Below, piece by piece: positions 27,475-36,493 of a stretch of DNA of 58,420 nt. This stretch comes from Thermoanaerobaculum aquaticum (GTDB taxonomy: Bacteria; Acidobacteriota; Thermoanaerobaculia; Thermoanaerobaculales; Thermoanaerobaculaceae), in the NCBI RefSeq assembly GCF_000687145.1, contig NZ_JMFG01000020.1, forward strand, positions 1 to 58,420, in the 5' to 3' direction. The position numbers and the translations under genes are program-made. Within the stretch, counting starts at the first letter, position 1. The number at the start of each line of letters is the position of its first letter. Under the pieces are notes generated by a model. It saw only the letters and a program-made list of their open reading frames with translations, was not told the origin of the DNA and searched no databases.

Positions 27475-28080
27475 ATGAAGAGGGTTGTGCTATTGGCGGT
27501 GCTTTTAGGGCTATTGACGGCGCCCGGTCTTTTTGCCCAGGCCACGGGGAACACCAGCATATACGTCCAGTTCCCGCGGATTGCCATTCTTTACTACCGC
27601 TCCAGCATCACGCTCGCGCCCAGCGCCAGTGACCTCATTACCGCTTTTGCAGGGGCTAACCCCGTGAACACTGGAACCACCACGATCAACACCTTCACCG
27701 CCGGTTTGGGAAGCCTGGAAGGAGATGCTACGACGCCGGCGACGCCGTTTAACCAAAACGTGCTCACCACCATCAACAACTTCTACCAGGTGCGCGCGAA
27801 CTACCAGTTCCAGGTCACTGTGTCTATTACCGATGGCACGCTTCAAGGCGACGGTACCACGGGTGGCGGCAACATTTTGATGGCCAACGCGCAAACCGAG
27901 CTCAACGACAGCGGGACGTGGGCTGCTACAGTTCAGCAAACAACTCCTGGTGGTCTAGGGACGGTTCACAAGGGCGATGTGCGGTTCGATTTGGACTTTT
28001 CTGGGGCTACGCTCATTCCTCCTGCTGCCACGGCCACCTTCGGCGACGGGGTAGTGCAAACGCAGGTGGCGTTTTTCTGA
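27475..28080 (+). CDS. Secreted subunit-like protein heading a chaperone-usher-like operon
   Basis: This 201-residue protein has a clear signal peptide (MKRVVLLAVLLGLLTAPGLFAQ). The mature part is Thr/Asn/Gly/Ala-rich, predicted all-beta, without cysteine, ending in TQVAFF. That composition suits a self-assembling surface subunit, such as the cysteine-free major pilins of alpha-type (CS1-like) fimbriae, but I do not recognise the family. The ATG has an excellent GAAAGGAGAGG site. A strong terminator follows within 20 bases of the stop. The downstream genes encode a second subunit-like protein, a PapD-like chaperone and an usher-like barrel, so I infer this is the abundant structural subunit. 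Function is inferred from context only. Confidence 0.6.
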   Translation: MKRVVLLAVLLGLLTAPGLFAQATGNTSIYVQFPRIAILYYRSSITLAPSASDLITAFAGANPVNTGTTTINTFTAGLGSLEGDATTPATPFNQNVLTTINNFYQVRANYQFQVTVSITDGTLQGDGTTGGGNILMANAQTELNDSGTWAATVQQTTPGGLGTVHKGDVRFDLDFSGATLIPPAATATFGDGVVQTQVAFF

Positions 28081-28097
28081 ACGTGGAACGGGAAAAA

Positions 28098-28124
28098 GGG
28101 GGGCCGCAGAGGCCCCCCTTTTTT
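28098..28124 (+). terminator. Intra-operon terminator/attenuator after the major-subunit-like gene
   Basis: An 8-bp GC stem (GGGGGGCC / GGCCCCCC, loop GCAGA) is followed by six T residues. The next start codon is only 14 bases further on, leaving little room for a separate promoter. The terminator therefore probably lets a fraction of transcripts through, giving high output of the first gene and low output of the assembly genes. Confidence 0.85.
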
Positions 28125-28137
28125 GCTAAACTCTACG

Positions 28138-28572
28138 ATGGTGCTCGCTCTTGTCCCCCTTTTGGCCCTGGCTGCCGGTGCACCGGTACGGGTGGAGCTT
28201 CCCCGGCAATTGGTGCTTGAGCCTCTTTCTGCCGTGGAGCTGGCTGGCTCTTCCGCGGTGCCGTGGGAGGGGCACGGCGCCCCTCCCTTGTGGCCGGTGA
28301 GTCGCCGGGTGCCGGGGGCGTTTCGCCTTTTCCTGCCCCCAGGGGTGGCGGTAGACTCACTGCGCGTGGAGGTTCAGGCTGAGGGCTTGCAGCCAGGGCG
28401 AAAGGAGGGTCAGGCCATTCCGGTTCAGGTCAACCTCCTACCCCTTCGCTTGGTGCAGGAAACACCTGAAGGCGCGGTGTGGGAGGGGGACCTTCTGGTG
28501 TTTTTGGACCCCGCCAGGGCGGAGGCGGGGGAGTTCCAGGGGAGCCTTACCGTAACCGTCACCCCGAGGTAA
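28138..28572 (+). CDS. Second small secreted, subunit-like protein
   Basis: This 144-residue protein has a short signal peptide (MVLALVPLLALAAGAP) and an all-beta mature part without cysteine. Its end, AGEFQGSLTVTVTPR, has the look of C-terminal strands of pilus subunits of the form 'AG.Y.G.(V/L)...(M/V)T'. The ATG at 28138 is chosen for the signal peptide; a TTG at 28123 inside the terminator tail is unlikely. No strong ribosome site is visible, which fits low expression. It is followed after 2 bases by the chaperone gene. I infer a minor or tip subunit; the family is not recognised. Confidence 0.5.
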   Translation: MVLALVPLLALAAGAPVRVELPRQLVLEPLSAVELAGSSAVPWEGHGAPPLWPVSRRVPGAFRLFLPPGVAVDSLRVEVQAEGLQPGRKEGQAIPVQVNLLPLRLVQETPEGAVWEGDLLVFLDPARAEAGEFQGSLTVTVTPR

Positions 28573-28574
28573 CG

Positions 28575-29426
28575 ATGGGGCGGGGGCCGGCTTTTCTACT
28601 GCCGCTTGTGCCCGGGTGTGCGCTGGCGGGGGCCATCGCCATTTCTCCACCCCGACTTGACATTACCCTGACGGGTACTCAAGCGGCGGAAGCCGTGAAG
28701 GTTGTTAACCTCGATACCAATCCAATTCGACTCAAGGTAAGCGTGGCGCACTGGCGTCTTGACGAGCACAACCGCGTGGAGGTAATCCCCCCTACGCCTC
28801 AGTCGGCGGACCAATGGCTGCTCATTACCCCGCTGGAGTTTGTGGTGGAACCGGGGAAGTTTCAGACGTTGCGCATTTTGGTTCGTCCCCGGGTTAAACC
28901 GGAGGTGGGCGAGCACCGGGCCATGATTTTCTTGGACGAACAGCCCCCGGACACCAAGGAGTTTGCCACCCGCAACCTGGCGCGAATTGGGGTGGGGGTG
29001 TACGTGTGGGTTCCGCCGGTGGAACGAAAGGCCATTTTTCACTGTGCCGATGCAGGTTATTTTCAAAAGCCCATGGCGCTTTTGGATTTGGAAAGCACCG
29101 GCAACGCTCATGTCCGTCCTGCTGTACAGTTTGTAGTGTGGCCGAAGGAGAAGTTTCCGGGCAAAGCGGGGACCGTTAAGGTACAGGAATCGCCTTCCTC
29201 GCCGGTGGTGGTCCCCGCAGGGGCGGTGGCGGCCGGCCTGGTGCCCGATATCCCGGTGCTCCCGGGAACCAGAAGGAAAATCGTTTTCCCTTTGGCCGAA
29301 AGCCTTCCCGCCGGAGAGTACTGGTTGGACCTTTCGGGCCAGGTGGACTCACTTCCTATTGCCGAAGTCGTTCCCTTCATCGTGCCTGAACTTCCCTCGG
29401 GAGATGCCCGTGATGGGGCCCATTAG
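28575..29426 (+). CDS. PapD-like periplasmic pilus chaperone
   Basis: This 283-residue protein has a signal-like N-terminus ending near CALAGA. It then reads IAISPPRLDITLTGTQAAEA, VVNLDTNPIRLKVSVAHW, FVVEPGKFQTLRILVRP and GEHRAMIFLDEQ. These correspond to the first immunoglobulin-like domain of pilus chaperones, including the strand-G region that is followed by an Arg-rich subunit-binding strand. A second beta domain (about 155-275) completes the two-domain layout; length is near the upper end for the family. It lies between a subunit-like gene and an usher-like gene. The usher start overlaps its 3' end by 14 bases. It most likely caps subunits in the periplasm. Closest to the alternate (CS1-like) or archaic chaperones rather than classical FimC. 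Confidence 0.7.
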   Translation: MGRGPAFLLPLVPGCALAGAIAISPPRLDITLTGTQAAEAVKVVNLDTNPIRLKVSVAHWRLDEHNRVEVIPPTPQSADQWLLITPLEFVVEPGKFQTLRILVRPRVKPEVGEHRAMIFLDEQPPDTKEFATRNLARIGVGVYVWVPPVERKAIFHCADAGYFQKPMALLDLESTGNAHVRPAVQFVVWPKEKFPGKAGTVKVQESPSSPVVVPAGAVAAGLVPDIPVLPGTRRKIVFPLAESLPAGEYWLDLSGQVDSLPIAEVVPFIVPELPSGDARDGAH

Positions 29427-31968
29427 TGGCAGATCGCGGGGATCTTCAAGACGCGGGTTAAAAATCGCTTCTTTTTGCCAGGTTGTCAGGACAACCGTGG
29501 CGCTGCTTTTGGGGTTAGGTGGAGCGCACGGTGGGGCTTTGGACTGGGATCAGGCGCTGCCCTCCCAGGCTTCCCTGGTGGTTCTGGTGACAGTGGGCGG
29601 GCGGGAGGTGGGAGCAACCGAGGTGCTGCGGTGGGAACAGGAGATGTGCCTCCGGCTGGCGGATTTTGCACAGTTTACCGGGGCCACCGTCGAGGCCATT
29701 GCCCTTGGCTACCGGATCAAGACCCCTTTGGGGGAAACCACCATCCCGCTGGATGAGATCCGCCAGGTGGAGGGTGAGCCTTACGTTTGCCAGGGGGTGC
29801 TGAAGGCAAGGCTCGGCACCGATGTGGCCTTTGAGCCTGCCACGGTGACGTTATCGCTTGATGTTCCGTGGTCCCTGCCCACAGCCGTTCGGATGGCCGC
29901 TCCTCTTGTACCGGAAATTCGCGCCCCAGCCTGGAGCCTGGGCACGGTTCACCTGGACGTGAGCGGAATTTCCGAGGGGAGGGGGTTTTCTTCCACCGGC
30001 AACGCGTGGGCCACCGGAAGGGCGTTGAACGGCGAATGGCGGATTTTGGGGGAGCGGGGGAACGATGGAGAAGCGAGGTTACGGGAGCTCCTCTGGGTGA
30101 CCCGCAAGCCTCGGTGGTTTGCTTTTTTCGGCCGCAACTACGTGCAGCTTTCCCCGGTGCTTGCCGGCTTTGACCTGGTGGGTGCCGGGGTGGGTTGGAG
30201 CAACCGGCCGTTGCCGAGCCTGGGAGCTTGGAGCTCGCTTACCGGCTTTTCCACCTCGGCCACGCGCAACTTCCGCGGAACTGCGCCCCCGGGATCTTTT
30301 GTGAAGTTGCGCATCAACGGCGTGGTGGTGGCTTCCCAGCAGGTGGGCCTTTCCGGTCGCTTTGAGTTTTTGGATGTTCCCGTTACCGGCGGGCGAACCA
30401 GCGTGCCGGTGGAAATTGAAATTTACGATCGGCACAACCTCTTAGCACCCCTGGAGGTGCGCCGGCTGGCCACGCCCACCTCGTGGTGGCTTTTGCCACG
30501 AGGTTCGCTGGAGCTGGTCATGGGCGGGGGTATGGGAGGGCAACTGGGTCGCAGCTTGCTAGGGGACGACAGTAGCCTCCGTAAGGGTGCGGCCTATTCG
30601 GCCATCCGCTGGGGCCTGGGGGAAAACCTCACGGCGGAAGCCATGGTGCAAACCGTGGGTAACCGTTGGCAAGCGGGTGCAGGGCTCGCTTGGCAGGCCT
30701 TTCCCGAAGCCTTCACGGCGCTGACCTTAGCTCAAGCCGATGGGCAATGGGCCTGGAACTGGGAAGGCACGCTTCAGAAGAACGAGTGGGCCGTTCTGGC
30801 CCGTGCCTTTGAACAACCGCAAGCGTTTCGCCTGCAACCTGTTGGCAGCGTGCGGCGGGATTACTCCCTGGAGCTGCGCTACAACCCTGCTTCCTGGCTG
30901 GAGTTGGGGCTGTGGAGCCGGAAGCTGGACTTTGAGCCCGAGCACGTTCAGTGGGTTCGCCCCACGGCGGTGGTGTCGCTGGGGAGCGCGCTTTTCTTGC
31001 GCATTGCTCCCGACCAGTGGGGGGATTACGTCATCACCGCCACCTCGCAACCCCACCCCCGCCTGCGGCTGTCCGCAAGCTACTTCCACTCGCAGCTTTA
31101 CGATGTGGGCTGGGATATGCCCACCTCCTGGCCCCTGGAGCTACGGGGCACCTGGGAGCGAGGGGGGGAGGGCAGTGACCGCCTCACATTGACCGTAGGG
31201 AACCGACCTGAGAGCTTTCGCCTGCCAAGGCTTCGCGTGGGGATTCAGACTTCCGGGGGCTTTTCAGCTGCATACGCTGAGGCGTCGGCGCCGGTGTGGT
31301 CGGGGCTTTGGTTTCGGGCCCAGTACATGGGCATTCCCTCCCGGGTGCTGGGGGGAGAAAAACCGAAGCCGCGACTTTTCCTTGCTCTTACCGCGGATTT
31401 TGGCTACGCCATGGGCAGGCTGGTGGCCGCAGACCAAACCACCCTGCGCCGGGAGCTGGGTGGTGTTGCGGGACGTTTGTTAGTAAGAGGAAAAGCGCCG
31501 GCTGTGAGCCTTGCGGGTGCCCGGGTGCAGGTCGTTGGCTTCGGTGGCACTGTGACTTCCGCCGATGGGAGCTTCTTTGTCGGGAACGTTCCGCCAGGGG
31601 TCTACGAGGTGGAGCTGGATCCCGAGCGGTTGCCCCTAGAGCTTGTTCCCGTGCAACGCCGGTTCGTGGTGGAAGTCGCTGCTGGCACCATCACCCGGGT
31701 GGATTTTCCCCTGCGGCAACTGTACGGTTTTGCCGGGCAGGTGCGCACCACCGACGGCGTTGGCGTTGCTGGGGCACGGGTGGTTCTCCTTTCCAGGGGC
31801 ACCGAGGTAGCCTCCCAGGAGACCGACGCTTTCGGTTACTTCCGGTTCGACCAGCTGGAACCCGGCACGTACCTCCTCCAGGCCTGGCGCGGGGAGCAGA
31901 AGCTCGGCGAACGCCCTGTGCTCCTGGAGGGGTTCCTCTTTGACCAGGACATCGTGGCGAACCCCTGA
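29413..31968 (+). CDS. Divergent usher-like outer-membrane protein with two C-terminal carboxypeptidase-regulatory-like domains
   Basis: The product has about 851 residues with a signal-like segment (RTTVALLLGLGGAHGGA). An usher-style N-terminal domain follows (VVLVTVGGREVGATEVL, then CLRLADFAQFTG). A long beta-barrel follows, with the inserted plug-like domain around residues 285-345 (FVKLRINGVVVASQQVGLSG, FLDVPVTGG). The barrel ends near residue 690. Residues about 690-850 form two carboxypeptidase-regulatory-like beta-sandwiches (AGARVQVVGFGGTVTSADGS; GVAGARVVLLSRGTEVASQE) in place of the usual usher C-terminal domains. ATG 29413 is chosen because GGGAG lies nine bases upstream; ATG 29404 is an alternative. 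It overlaps the chaperone gene. Ushers translocate and assemble pili. Confidence 0.65.
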   Translation: MGPISGRSRGSSRRGLKIASFCQVVRTTVALLLGLGGAHGGALDWDQALPSQASLVVLVTVGGREVGATEVLRWEQEMCLRLADFAQFTGATVEAIALGYRIKTPLGETTIPLDEIRQVEGEPYVCQGVLKARLGTDVAFEPATVTLSLDVPWSLPTAVRMAAPLVPEIRAPAWSLGTVHLDVSGISEGRGFSSTGNAWATGRALNGEWRILGERGNDGEARLRELLWVTRKPRWFAFFGRNYVQLSPVLAGFDLVGAGVGWSNRPLPSLGAWSSLTGFSTSATRNFRGTAPPGSFVKLRINGVVVASQQVGLSGRFEFLDVPVTGGRTSVPVEIEIYDRHNLLAPLEVRRLATPTSWWLLPRGSLELVMGGGMGGQLGRSLLGDDSSLRKGAAYSAIRWGLGENLTAEAMVQTVGNRWQAGAGLAWQAFPEAFTALTLAQADGQWAWNWEGTLQKNEWAVLARAFEQPQAFRLQPVGSVRRDYSLELRYNPASWLELGLWSRKLDFEPEHVQWVRPTAVVSLGSALFLRIAPDQWGDYVITATSQPHPRLRLSASYFHSQLYDVGWDMPTSWPLELRGTWERGGEGSDRLTLTVGNRPESFRLPRLRVGIQTSGGFSAAYAEASAPVWSGLWFRAQYMGIPSRVLGGEKPKPRLFLALTADFGYAMGRLVAADQTTLRRELGGVAGRLLVRGKAPAVSLAGARVQVVGFGGTVTSADGSFFVGNVPPGVYEVELDPERLPLELVPVQRRFVVEVAAGTITRVDFPLRQLYGFAGQVRTTDGVGVAGARVVLLSRGTEVASQETDAFGYFRFDQLEPGTYLLQAWRGEQKLGERPVLLEGFLFDQDIVANP

Positions 31969-32003
31969 GGAATAGGAGTTTCCGCTCTCTCCTCCGCCTC
32001 CCT

Positions 32004-32095
32004 GTGTCCGAAAATCGTTCATTCTTCAGCTTCCAAAGAGGCGCCAGCGCTTCACTGTTTTCCTGGCCCCTGAAGTATGTTTGAAAAACGGACAC
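32004..32095. repeat. 92-bp nested inverted repeat between the usher-like gene and the next gene
   Basis: GTGTCCG (32004-32010) pairs with CGGACAC (32089-32095). After exactly 13 bases on each side, CTTCAG (32024-32029) pairs with CTGAAG (32070-32075). Inside, GCCAG (32043) pairs with CTGGC (32063). The two 26-base arms match at 18 positions. It could be an mRNA structure or the remains of a small mobile element. There is no T-run, so it is not a typical terminator. Confidence 0.6.
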
Positions 32096-32210
32096 TATCA
32101 CCCCGACGTTGAACGCCTGACCTATCGGTAACTTACTGCTGATCAACATGTTGTGATGTCTGTCCCGATGGCACGCTTTTCGCTTCTACCTCCAGCGGGA
32201 GGATGGGGCA

Positions 32211-32525
32211 ATGGTAGGCTTTGGAAGGAAAGCGTTGGTGGCAGGAGTGCTGGCGGTAGCGGCGTGGGTGGGCGAGGTGTGGGCTGGACAGACCGCCATT
32301 GCCATCAAAATCCCCGTCACTCCTGAGCTGGTGGCGCTGTTTCAAAAGAAAAACGTAGCCACTACCACATCGGCGAGCGTATCCCCGGCACCGACGCTGG
32401 TGGTCACCTGGGATGGGGAGCGCTCTTCCGTTCAGGGCTTTACCGCGCAAGGGGAGCGAACCCGTCAATGGCGAAGCGTCGAACTGAACCGCGACGGCGA
32501 ACTCCACACGGTGGTTAGCTTCTAA
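32211..32525 (+). CDS. Small secreted protein downstream of the usher-like gene
   Basis: This 104-residue protein has a signal peptide (ALVAGVLAVAAWVGEVWAG) and a short beta-rich, Thr/Val-rich mature part without cysteine (IKIPVTPELVALF, TLVVTWDGERSSVQGF) ending in VVSF. I do not recognise it. GCGGGAGGA precedes the ATG at 32211. It lies 242 bases after the usher-like gene with a nested inverted repeat between, so it may have its own promoter. It shares the 11-mer TGATGTCTGTC upstream (32154-32164) with the leader of the first operon gene. By position and export it may belong to the surface-structure locus. Confidence 0.5.
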   Translation: MVGFGRKALVAGVLAVAAWVGEVWAGQTAIAIKIPVTPELVALFQKKNVATTTSASVSPAPTLVVTWDGERSSVQGFTAQGERTRQWRSVELNRDGELHTVVSF

Positions 32526-32561: not shown

Positions 32562-34208
32562 CTACCGTTGGCCCGCTGGAGCCCGGCGTGCCGGGCCGCC
32601 CACATGCTGCACGCCGGCCTGGGGGTTGTTGTCGCCGGGGGTGTTTTCCGAAAGCGGCAAAATCACACCAAAGATACCGCGCTCGCGAATAAACGTGGCC
32701 TGCACCAGGGTGAGCCATGGCGTTGCTAGGGCAGAGCCTCCGGTCCGGTAGGTCCTATCAACGCTCCCCAACCTATGAAACAGCAATTTCACGGTAGCGT
32801 GAGGGCAAGGCACGTTGAAGCGCACCAAACCCAGGGGGAAGTCGTAGTCCCGGTCGGGGACGGAAAGCGCCGTCTCTAAAAGGGTGGCTACCGATTGCAG
32901 TTGCCCGCAACCTTGCATAATTTCCACGGTTAAATACCCCTTGCCGGAAGCCAGTGGCAGCGTGGCCACGTGGGGTTGTTGGCTGTCCGGAATGCCATCG
33001 CCGTTGCCGTCCCCTGGGGCAAAGGGAGGCCTGCCGTCTCCACCGGGGTAACTGTTCTCGACCTCCCGGGCCACTCCATCGCCGTCATCTGCCACCGGCA
33101 CCTCCACCTGCACCGCGTTGTTGGCAGCATTGGGGTCGGCAGCGGTGGAGCTGGCGCTGAAGGTGACGGTGCCGCCGGCGTTGTTGACCAAAGAAACGGT
33201 GCAGGTAACCCCTTGGCGCTCGGAAAGCCACCCCACCTCCCAGGTCCCATCGGAAAAGGTGCCGCCGCAGCTATCGCCGGCATAGCTCACACCGGAAGGC
33301 AACGTCAAGGTAACCGCGGTGCTTTCCGCCGGGGATGGACCGAAGTTCCCCAAATGCAGCGGCACATCAAAGGGGCCGCTTTCCGGAGGTGGGGAAGGCA
33401 TACTCTGGCTGAGCTCCAAATCCGACATCGGACCTCCGGGGGGAAAGCGCGGGGAGAAAAAGCAAACGCCAAGCCCAGGGGCAAGGCCACCGGCGGCGTT
33501 GAAGTGGTAGCCCAGACCAACCTGGGCGTGGTGGTCCTGAAGGCCCACCGTGGCGGAACCGCCCCCGCTGGCGTCCACGCTTTGGTACTGGAGGGCCATT
33601 TGCCCGCTTTGGTGGTAAAGCACCAGCTCAAAGGAAAAACTCTCGCTGGCTCCAACCCGCCGCATGCCCTCCCAGCTCACCACCGTGCAGGGTTCTACCC
33701 CCAGACTTTCGGAAACCCGCGGGCAGGTGGGGAAGAAGCCTGTGACGACTTGGCCGGCAGGGCCTACCTCCAGGTCGTCGTGGTAGACGAAAACCCTTGC
33801 GGGTGTGGCAAACCGCGGGGAACCAGAAGCGAACTGAAAGGAAGGGACGGATCCTACCGGATCGTTGCTGAAGTCCCGCCCGTCCTCCTGCTCCAGCGCG
33901 CCGGCAAAACCCACATACCCGTTGGGTGAAACCACCACCGACGAGTAGGAGCGACCGTAAAACTCAAAGGGAGCAGAAAGGGGAACCACGGCACCGCCGT
34001 CGTCGAAAGCCTGGGGATCCCCGGGGGAAGCGTAAGGAGCGGCGAAAACCAGAGGCGAGCCGGAAACCACCACCCATTGGTAGCTGCAGTAAGAGGTGGT
34101 GGTGTCCTCCACCCGGTAGCCAAAGCTGTCCCGTTGCCCGTTGGGGGATCGCGCCCCCAGGGGAACTGCAATAGCCAGCAAGGCCAGCGAGAGGGCAAGC
34201 CTTTTCAT
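32562..34208 (-). CDS. Secreted protein with DUF11-like and choice-of-anchor-U-like domains
   Basis: This 548-residue protein has a signal peptide (MKRLALSLALLAIAVPLGA). An N-terminal region (about 25-265) contains SYSSVVVSPNGYVGF and VVSWEGMRR, like nidogen/adhesin-type beta domains. A DUF11-like segment (about 275-370) reads ADPNAANNAVQVEVPV. An Asp/Gly-rich calcium-type stretch (DDGDGVAREVENS, DGNGDGIPDSQQP) leads to a C-terminal domain resembling 'choice-of-anchor U' (SVPDRDYDFPLGLVRFNV). Such proteins sit at or are released from the cell surface. The ATG at 34208 is preferred for the signal peptide and GGAGGCG site. It begins 8 bases after the stop of the partner gene upstream on the same strand. 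No catalytic motif was seen. Confidence 0.62.
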   Translation of the reverse strand: MKRLALSLALLAIAVPLGARSPNGQRDSFGYRVEDTTTSYCSYQWVVVSGSPLVFAAPYASPGDPQAFDDGGAVVPLSAPFEFYGRSYSSVVVSPNGYVGFAGALEQEDGRDFSNDPVGSVPSFQFASGSPRFATPARVFVYHDDLEVGPAGQVVTGFFPTCPRVSESLGVEPCTVVSWEGMRRVGASESFSFELVLYHQSGQMALQYQSVDASGGGSATVGLQDHHAQVGLGYHFNAAGGLAPGLGVCFFSPRFPPGGPMSDLELSQSMPSPPPESGPFDVPLHLGNFGPSPAESTAVTLTLPSGVSYAGDSCGGTFSDGTWEVGWLSERQGVTCTVSLVNNAGGTVTFSASSTAADPNAANNAVQVEVPVADDGDGVAREVENSYPGGDGRPPFAPGDGNGDGIPDSQQPHVATLPLASGKGYLTVEIMQGCGQLQSVATLLETALSVPDRDYDFPLGLVRFNVPCPHATVKLLFHRLGSVDRTYRTGGSALATPWLTLVQATFIRERGIFGVILPLSENTPGDNNPQAGVQHVGGPARRAPAGQR

Positions 34209-34216
34209 AGCGCCTC

Positions 34217-36493
34217 CTAGTTCAGTTGAAACGCCAAACACCAACGCTGGAGGGTGCCGTTTTCCTTTTTGGCTTGGTCAGACACCCTCAAAGTCCAGTT
34301 TCCGCTGGCGTTTTGGCCGTCAAAGCTGGAAAGGGGGTTGTTGGGCACCAGGTAGCCGGAAAGGGCGGGAAGGTTCAGGCACTGAGTCTCGGCCGGCTGC
34401 GTAGCTTCATCGTCCAACACCGCGTCCACGTTGTCACCGTTGCACCCAGCCCCGGGGAGGCCCGGCCGGTCCACCAAGAGCACCGTGGTGCCGGCGGGGG
34501 AGGTGAGCTGCACCTGCAAATCCGAAACCCTGGTGTGGGTGATTTGCACCCACAGGTCCAAATCGGCCACGGTGCCGGTGAGTGCCGAGGCTATGGTGTC
34601 GGTAACGCCGTTGACGTTGTTATCGGGGATGGCGGTATCAGGTTGGGCGCAGAGGATGCGCCGATAGGCCCCGCTGGTGGTTACCTCAAAGACCTCCACA
34701 TTCCCATCTGGATTGCCGCCGGTGAGGTTGCTTTGGGATTGCAGGGCAATGCGGCGAATATTCGCGCCGGCGGCGATGGTGGGCAAAAGCGGATCCGTGG
34801 CCGAAAAAACCGGGTTTCCGTTCCCTAGCGATGACATATAGAAAACCCGCGTTTCAAAGCTAAAGGTTGTGAAATCCAACCGCTCACCTACGGCCCAAAC
34901 GCCAGCATCGTCCAGCTTCCCGGAAATGTAGGCCACGGTATTCGGCTCGTTGGAAACCTGGGTGATGGTGGCGGGGCTTTGCCATTTGAAGAGTTCATAA
35001 CTACCGTCGGCGTTGCTCCCCGCAAAGTTGCCGTTGGAGGCAAACAGAACAGCGCTCCCGCTGCTGGCAATGCTGGGAACATCCTGAGCTACCGGATCGG
35101 CGGTGTTGGTAATTTGCAGGAAGCTGTTGGTTTGCCGGTCCCGCCGGAAAACCTCCGGGTTGCCATCGGCATTGGTGCCGCTGAGGTTGCAGGTGGAAAT
35201 AAAAGCCACGTACCGGGACTGCTGTCGGGCCACCGCTGGCGCGTAGTTTTGGCATCCGCTGGTGCTGGTCCCGGCAAAGGAAGCCCCGTCCCACGCCACC
35301 AGCTCCACGTTCCCATCGGGGTTGGCAAAACCGGGCAGGGAACAGGTGGTGGTGAAGGCAATGACGTCGCCAGCTGCATCTCCGGCAATGCTGGGGGCAC
35401 GGTTCTCACAGGGTGGGGAGGTGTTGGTGATTTGGGTGGTGGCCAGGGTTTGCCGGTCCACCCGAAAGATTTCCCAGTTGCCATCGGCGTTTTGGCCGGT
35501 GAGGTTGGCAGTGGAAGCAAAAGCAACGAAGCGGCCGTTGGCTGTGAGGGCAGGGTGGGAAAAGCTCCCCGAGGTGGCGCTGGTAAGCCTCTGGTAGCTC
35601 AAGCCATCGTGGACAAAGATCTGCTCTTGGGCGCCGGGGTTGTCGCCAGTGATGTTGCCCGACGAAACGAAAGCCATCACCGGCGGGCTGTCGGCAAGAG
35701 CAGGTTCGCGGCTATCCACAGGGGTGTACTGCAGGCTCCCACCTTTCCATTCGGTAACTGCACCGCTGGTAGAGGTGAGCTGGCTGGACGCCAGCGCACA
35801 GGTGGAAGGCACCTCCACCGCGTCCACCAAAAGCGCCGAATCGTAAAAGGCATCGCCTTGGTCCGCCACCCGAAACTGCAGGGTGTAGGTCCCGGGCAGG
35901 TCAACGGTGACGCAAACCTTGGTCCAAGCGGTGCGGCCATCGTCGACCACGGTGTTGGTGATGGGTCCACCAGAGGTGAAGGTGTACGAAACGCCATCGT
36001 AAGGACCAAAGTCAGACCATGGGGAGTTACCGGTCACGGGCTTGAGCACGCTCCCCCGCACGAGGGGAAATCCGGTACTTGCCGGGGTCGCTTCACGCCG
36101 TAGGGTAACATCAAAAAGATCGTCATATTGGGGGCCCCAGTTTTGCTCGCTGGTGAGAAACGCAAACGCAAAGGAGAGGCTCACCGGAGCCGTGGTCACG
36201 GTAAATGAGGTCGAAAGCGTTGCCAGATCGTCCTCGTTGCTCCCGCCGTACCCATCTAGAGACGTGAGCGCGCCACCCGTGCTTCCGGGACCAGTGGACA
36301 GCACCGCAAAGTACGTGCCCTCGTAGGGCGCGATGTTGGGAGTAACGCCGGTGGCGGCAATGACACCCACCCGGTTGGTGCCTCCGGTGGCCCAGCCGGT
36401 AAGGTTGCCGGCTTCAAAACCGCCGTTGGTGATAAGCTGGGCCCAGCTGGAAGCCGAACAAGCCAAAGTGAGGAAGAAAAGCACACGCTTCAT
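34217..36493 (-). CDS. Secreted PD40-type beta-propeller protein with C-terminal P-domain
   Basis: This 758-residue protein has a signal peptide (MKRVLFFLTLACSASSWAQ). An N-terminal jelly-roll-like domain follows (LITNGGFEAGNLTGW, about 20-240). TolB/PD40-type blade repeats cover about 260-560 (HPALTANGRFVAFASTANLT, EIFRVDRQTLATTQIT, APSIAGDAAGDVIAF). The C-terminus is a proprotein-convertase-like P-domain (about 620-758: VADLDLWVQITHTRVSDLQV, GNWTLRVSDQAKKENG, WCLAF). P-domains usually accompany proteases, but no protease domain is present. The ATG at 36493 is chosen for the signal peptide; the open frame continues upstream into the acyl-CoA dehydrogenase region as a shadow. It is probably co-transcribed with the gene ending at 32562. 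Confidence 0.72.
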   Translation of the reverse strand: MKRVLFFLTLACSASSWAQLITNGGFEAGNLTGWATGGTNRVGVIAATGVTPNIAPYEGTYFAVLSTGPGSTGGALTSLDGYGGSNEDDLATLSTSFTVTTAPVSLSFAFAFLTSEQNWGPQYDDLFDVTLRREATPASTGFPLVRGSVLKPVTGNSPWSDFGPYDGVSYTFTSGGPITNTVVDDGRTAWTKVCVTVDLPGTYTLQFRVADQGDAFYDSALLVDAVEVPSTCALASSQLTSTSGAVTEWKGGSLQYTPVDSREPALADSPPVMAFVSSGNITGDNPGAQEQIFVHDGLSYQRLTSATSGSFSHPALTANGRFVAFASTANLTGQNADGNWEIFRVDRQTLATTQITNTSPPCENRAPSIAGDAAGDVIAFTTTCSLPGFANPDGNVELVAWDGASFAGTSTSGCQNYAPAVARQQSRYVAFISTCNLSGTNADGNPEVFRRDRQTNSFLQITNTADPVAQDVPSIASSGSAVLFASNGNFAGSNADGSYELFKWQSPATITQVSNEPNTVAYISGKLDDAGVWAVGERLDFTTFSFETRVFYMSSLGNGNPVFSATDPLLPTIAAGANIRRIALQSQSNLTGGNPDGNVEVFEVTTSGAYRRILCAQPDTAIPDNNVNGVTDTIASALTGTVADLDLWVQITHTRVSDLQVQLTSPAGTTVLLVDRPGLPGAGCNGDNVDAVLDDEATQPAETQCLNLPALSGYLVPNNPLSSFDGQNASGNWTLRVSDQAKKENGTLQRWCLAFQLN

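Follow-up and report, generated by a model that had tools for sequence, protein, structure and literature searches.

The locus lies in a window of 58,420 nucleotides, the whole stretch of Thermoanaerobaculum aquaticum DNA that was analysed. The window is the start of contig C20 (280,121 bases) in a genome of 2,660,928 bases and 68 contigs. Five genes are read from the plus strand. The first, sub1 (27475..28080), encodes a 201-residue protein with a signal peptide and no cysteine. It is separated from sub2 by a gap that holds a terminator-like hairpin with a T tail (28095..28124, plus strand). The sub2 gene encodes a second pilin-like secreted subunit, also free of cysteine, and runs from ATG 28138 to 28572, with TTG 28123 as an alternative start; its product ends in ...AGEFQGSLTVTVTPR. 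The gene for a PapD-type periplasmic chaperone (28575..29426) begins after 2 bp. The usher gene spans 29413..31968 when read from ATG, and its frame is open back to TTG 29359, from which it would encode 869 residues. Judged by the sequence, ATG 29413, which stands behind GGGAG, is most likely the start, and with it the chaperone and usher genes overlap by 14 bp. A gene for a small, cysteine-free secreted protein follows (32211..32525). Two genes for secreted proteins lie beyond it on the minus strand. One encodes a DUF11 protein (32562..34205; PF01345, E 2.2e-10), and the other a protein with a choice-of-anchor-L-like N-terminus, a weak PD40 signal, and a P-domain (34217..36490; PF01483, E 3.3e-17; NF038133, E 1.4e-7). 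The promoter scan found no promoter, and the Rfam and tRNA scans gave no matches. A preliminary description of this DNA had listed the five plus-strand frames, their tight spacing (2 bp, then an overlap), and a cysteine-free secreted protein at the head, and all of these were present where it had placed them.

The chaperone-usher (CU) pathway is the route by which Escherichia coli builds its pili, and CU pili rank among the most studied bacterial fibres. The genes had been taken for such a system, with an usher-barrel fold of the large protein as the test. AlphaFold2 models were obtained for the usher and sub1. The usher model (pLDDT 76, from a 19-row alignment) starts with an N-terminal domain and ends with two C-terminal beta domains. 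Between them lie six strands, the plug as an inserted beta domain (241-300), and then a further 18 or so strands; the strand count was taken from DSSP and is therefore approximate. In a Foldseek search against the PDB, the top 19 rows were all FimD/PapC, with E-values down to 1.6e-28, identities of 11-14%, and TM-scores to known ushers of about 0.5. VIA-align gave Z-scores of 16.1-19.1 to ushers, and the next best match was a porin (14.8). At the profile level, hhalign aligned the new usher with PF00577-positive acidobacterial ushers over 708 columns (probability 99.7, E 2.8e-26), and the usher barrel alone gave E 1e-25. With the decoys LptD, FhuA, and BamA, none of three usher profiles gave a match (best E 0.35). 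The new-usher profile found neither of the single sequences FimD and EcpC; the link to known ushers runs through structure and through the Pfam-positive acidobacterial ushers, a set that finds single FimD at 2.8e-33.

The Pfam scan of the usher matched neither PF00577 (Usher) nor the TcfC model, and the sole matches were two CarboxypepD_reg-like stretches at the C-terminus. Sequence searches of the PDB, run with the usher alone and again with its profile, returned transthyretin/CarboxypepD-like domains only. The Pfam matches would suit a barrel other than an usher that carries peptidase-regulatory domains, for example a TonB-dependent or porin-like protein. That identity is contradicted by the FimD/PapC matches and the hhalign result, and with fold, profile, operon, and decoys all speaking against it, we consider it hardly credible. 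By fold and profile, the large protein is an outer-membrane usher whose plugged barrel is flanked by periplasmic domains at both termini. We read the missing PF00577 match as a limit of the Pfam model because the fold and profile tests were positive. The five genomes with the new usher or a DUF4402-type relative that were checked for PF00577 likewise gave no match.

The chaperone scores 24.1 bits with PF00345 (PapD_N; cut-off 23), and its relative in a Nostoc locus (L017) scores 35.2 bits. Compared with acidobacterial CU chaperones, its profile matches with a probability of 99.3 and E 2.4e-20; a PDB search with the same profile gave marginal FaeE/PapD matches only. In the chaperone CsuC, three residues (Arg89, Tyr196, and Arg174) grip the carboxylate of the subunit; Arg89 is diagnostic of non-classical chaperones, and one proline is invariant throughout the chaperone superfamily (PMC4654587). 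Three residues conserved in our alignment, P86, R100, and R181, align with the superfamily proline, Arg89, and the domain-2 Arg174 of CsuC, respectively, and the Tyr196 position is Pro/Val; this equivalence runs via an archaic chaperone alignment and is to that extent indirect. For the Arg8/Lys112-type anchor of classical CU systems (beta, gamma, kappa, and pi), a basic residue in strand A1 of domain 1 is conserved, and the G1 basic residue aligns inconsistently. The protein is a PapD-type chaperone with the superfamily proline and, from its alignment, a non-classical carboxylate arginine. Two Ig domains with a conserved Arg/Lys pair had been proposed as the mark to look for. The conserved proline and the non-classical arginine speak for the assignment, but the pair itself marks classical chaperones only and does not serve as a general criterion.

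Neither sub1 nor sub2 had a significant Pfam match or a match to a pilin family, and sub2 also lacked an NCBIfam match. Mature sub1 begins at about Q22. In its model (pLDDT 75; residues 37-70 of low confidence), the first ten Foldseek rows were CfaB, CS17, FimG, CS20, and PapG pilins. CfaB was the best match (E 2.7e-3, probability 0.97), and the list was dominated by CU pilins. VIA-align gave Z-scores of about 6 to PapG/FimG pilin domains with model residues 13-180 aligned. The majority of its listed rows were CU pilins, and most alignments started near residue 13 and left Q1-F12 free. This stretch (QATGNTSIYVQF) contains the donor-like strand TSIYVQFP, with the hydrophobic residues I8, V10, and F12 before proline; the donor residues of CsuA/B are Val8, Leu10, and Ile12 (PMC4654587). 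A related motif ending in proline was present in 13 of the 13 sub1 N-termini examined, with a one-residue shift allowed and a varying register in some. From the model, whose matches are weak but dominate the list, sub1 is predicted to be an incomplete-Ig pilin-like subunit with an N-terminal extension. The sub2 gene is kept in place across loci. The profile of sub1 picks up sub2 proteins of the Nostoc family at E-values as low as 2.6e-11, so sub2 is considered related to sub1 and, on this sequence relationship, a likely pilin-like subunit.

The CfaB match touches on a leaning of the preliminary description towards the alternate (alpha, CS1/ECP) branch. The cysteine-free subunits, the presence of two subunit genes only, and the best PDB matches of the sub1 model (CfaB, CS17, and CS20 pilins) agree with that placement. 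The gene order does not: it is not specially CS1-like, as had been claimed, because the subunit genes precede the chaperone gene, as in archaic Csu operons. In addition, PF16967 was unmatched in the source genome (its matches elsewhere were mostly background, archaeal and Thermotoga controls included), the usher profile misses EcpC, and alternate systems are described as restricted to beta- and gamma-proteobacteria (PMC4654587). The fold match thus lends the CS1-like claim some weak support, and membership of the alternate branch seems rather improbable.

The hairpin behind sub1 (-34.2 kcal/mol, z -6.2) was not listed by the consensus terminator scan. Hairpins of other sequence occupy the same place in L011 (z -3.7, without a T tail), L013 (z -4.0), and L012 (z -1.7, with a T tail), and a pattern search of L025 and most Nostoc-family loci revealed no clear terminator-like hairpin. 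The element is likely a partial terminator that would trim expression downstream of the main subunit gene. Gene position and this hairpin make sub1 the probable main structural subunit.

The arrangement is more than a chance one: two other Thermoanaerobaculum genomes have kept all five genes, with usher identities of 67% and 46%, and the order of the first four is found more widely. A survey of gene order in related genomes had been suggested. The order sub1-sub2-chaperone-usher recurs in Thermoanaerobaculum, another family of its order, further Acidobacteriota, Nostoc, Mastigocoleus, and a Xanthomonadales MAG and its class; the exceptions are L048, without a sub2 match, and L045, which begins at sub2. 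Among 20 further Nostoc-family loci, 19 have the four genes complete and in order, and one has a gap in place of a detected sub2. At 1e-20, the usher search matched 64 of 145 genomes of the family of Nostoc sp. FACHB-280, 58 of them (about 40% of the 145) with E <1e-160. A class-wide cyanobacterial sample yielded five ushers in 291 genomes, all five within the Nostoc-family sample. Elsewhere the usher is scattered: 5 of 37 genomes in the order of Thermoanaerobaculum, 9 of 396 in Acidobacteriota (at 1e-10, some partial), and 5 of 369 in the class of the Xanthomonadales MAG. The Nostoc and Mastigocoleus ushers (L017-L024) have a long, low-complexity N-terminal extension, about 300 residues or more in length, ahead of the usher domain.

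In the usher tree, whose root is not known and in which some rows are long, a branch supported at 100/99 separates the 14 new-type rows from the DUF4402-type ushers (100/100) and from the PF00577 ushers with FimD and EcpC. This separate clade and the unmatched Usher and TcfC models bear out the view that the system is far from the studied proteobacterial ones. Because the Nostoc rows sit among acidobacterial rows, the tree suggests horizontal transfer. Two other divergent usher groups were noted. One, a second clade that Pfam Usher also leaves unmatched, occurs in Sphingomonadales, Phenylobacterium, and a Deferrisomatales MAG (L026, L027-L033); in L026 and L029 its subunits were seen to be of the DUF4402 type. 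The other is a third, more distant usher-like family in roughly 18 Nostoc-family genomes, which matches profile A6 at E-values of about 1e-21 to 1e-28, with frames mostly of about 880-1110 aa (for example, G521:C4:162154-163950 and G496:C62:4653-6512).

The operon could also have drifted within the archaic CU branch already known (sigma, spore-coat-U type), whose gene order and non-classical chaperone arginine it resembles; its chaperone profile, moreover, matches acidobacterial CU chaperones. PF05229 and PF00577 are nevertheless unmatched, sub1 and sub2 have no cysteine, and the ushers form a separate clade in the usher tree. The acidobacterial genome G037 has an archaic SCPU system in addition to a new-type one, which also counts against archaic membership, and we regard this reading as unlikely. 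The archaic operon of G037 (L079, G037:C1:1349500-1356500), the usher of which is in two frames in the stretch read, has the SCPU (PF05229) subunits with conserved cysteines that the new operon lacks. The preferred reading is that the locus is a complete chaperone-usher fibre-assembly operon (27475-31968), as had been proposed, and very probably one of a separate, poorly recognised branch.

Among the neighbouring genes, the small secreted protein (P0005) has no significant Pfam match. Within the genus it is conserved at 41% and 26% identity, and a possible relative with 26% identity lies on the opposite strand in L013. Among the 37 genomes of the order, full-length relatives of the DUF11 protein occur only in the five that bear the usher, and those of the P-domain protein in the same five; partial matches to the linked pair were seen in G001 and G014 and in G009 and G010. 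The chance of one set agreeing is 1 in 435,897 by genome and 1 in 560 by genus, the latter being the fairer figure because three of the genomes are congeners. In the Xanthomonadales MAG class, DUF11 and P-domain genes stand directly behind the usher gene in L132 and L135. They are absent from three other loci of that class (one contig ends at the usher) and from the Nostoc loci. The pair is not oriented alike in all groups, and inherited synteny alone therefore does not fully account for the linkage. From this co-occurrence, the two proteins probably act as partners of the fibre at the cell surface. Another possibility is that the usher exports them instead of building a fibre. A P-usher is cited in PMC4793230 as exporting a TpsA protein, and the pair, found in the same 5 of 37 genomes, adjoins the usher in seven loci, which come from two unrelated groups. 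Nearly all loci, however, have both subunits, whereas the pair is missing from the Nostoc loci and most others, and no POTRA or TpsB part was seen. Dedicated export is thus very unlikely.

For the fibre-assembly reading, the following scheme is proposed. The subunits would be exported by Sec. The chaperone would cap each one by lending its G1-strand motif (NLARIGVGVYV), with R100 gripping the subunit C-terminus, and the usher would receive the chaperone-subunit complexes. The N-terminal strand of sub1 (I8, V10, and F12 before proline) would then displace the chaperone strand in the preceding subunit, and the fibre would grow through the usher pore. A surplus of sub1 would be set by the hairpin behind its gene, and sub2 would probably serve at the tip, at the base, or as a minor component. 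Fold, profile, motif, and context together give good support for CU assembly; that a fibre forms, that donor strands are exchanged, and what the system does are inferred. The function would most likely be adhesion or biofilm/mat formation. More tentatively, the operon may represent a further major CU lineage, frequent in the Nostoc family of cyanobacteria and of scattered occurrence in Acidobacteriota and the Xanthomonadales MAG class; in some hosts, its two-subunit fibres would bear or anchor the co-inherited DUF11/P-domain pair as displayed cargo or adhesin.

In the open-access literature, we found no CU system of this type for Acidobacteriota or heterocystous cyanobacteria, an absence that the scope of the search makes weak. 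No experiment on, or report of, pili in T. aquaticum was found, and a comparison of 24 acidobacterial genomes does not mention pili or ushers. What is new here is the DUF11/P-domain pair tracking the usher and the terminator-like hairpin behind sub1. Surveys that rely on Pfam Usher overlook this branch, present in about 40% of the sampled Nostoc-family genomes. The analysis names a candidate surface fibre for these cyanobacteria and for a cultured thermophilic (hot-spring) acidobacterium. It also provides a two-subunit system for testing the reach of the assembly rules (the donor strand; a carboxylate anchor without tyrosine), and the linked secreted pair offers a new clue to what fibres of this kind display.

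Compared with archaic CU systems such as Acinetobacter Csu, the new operon shares the order subunits-chaperone-usher, the Arg89 and Arg174 positions of the chaperone, and a donor-like N-terminal strand with hydrophobic residues at 8, 10, and 12. It differs in having Pro/Val at the Tyr196 position and in lacking the SCPU (PF05229) domain, cysteines, a PF00577 match, and a two-domain tip gene behind the usher. With alternate systems (CFA/I, CS1, and ECP), it shares cysteine-free subunits, two subunit genes, and a sub1 fold nearest to CfaB, but it differs in gene order, phyla, and the absence of a TcfC/CooC match. The DUF4402 loci of Sphingomonadales and Phenylobacterium (L026-L033) are linked to it by usher profile matches (E 1e-23 to 1e-24), pilin-like subunits, and a CarboxypepD-like C-terminus; their ushers nevertheless form a separate clade (100/100), their subunits are of the DUF4402 type, and L026 has another subunit gene behind the usher. 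In cyanobacteria, the CU pathway as such is common to the new operon and the CccS/CccP/Slr0019-type genes, the latter with PF05229 subunits and PF00577 ushers (PMC4390875).
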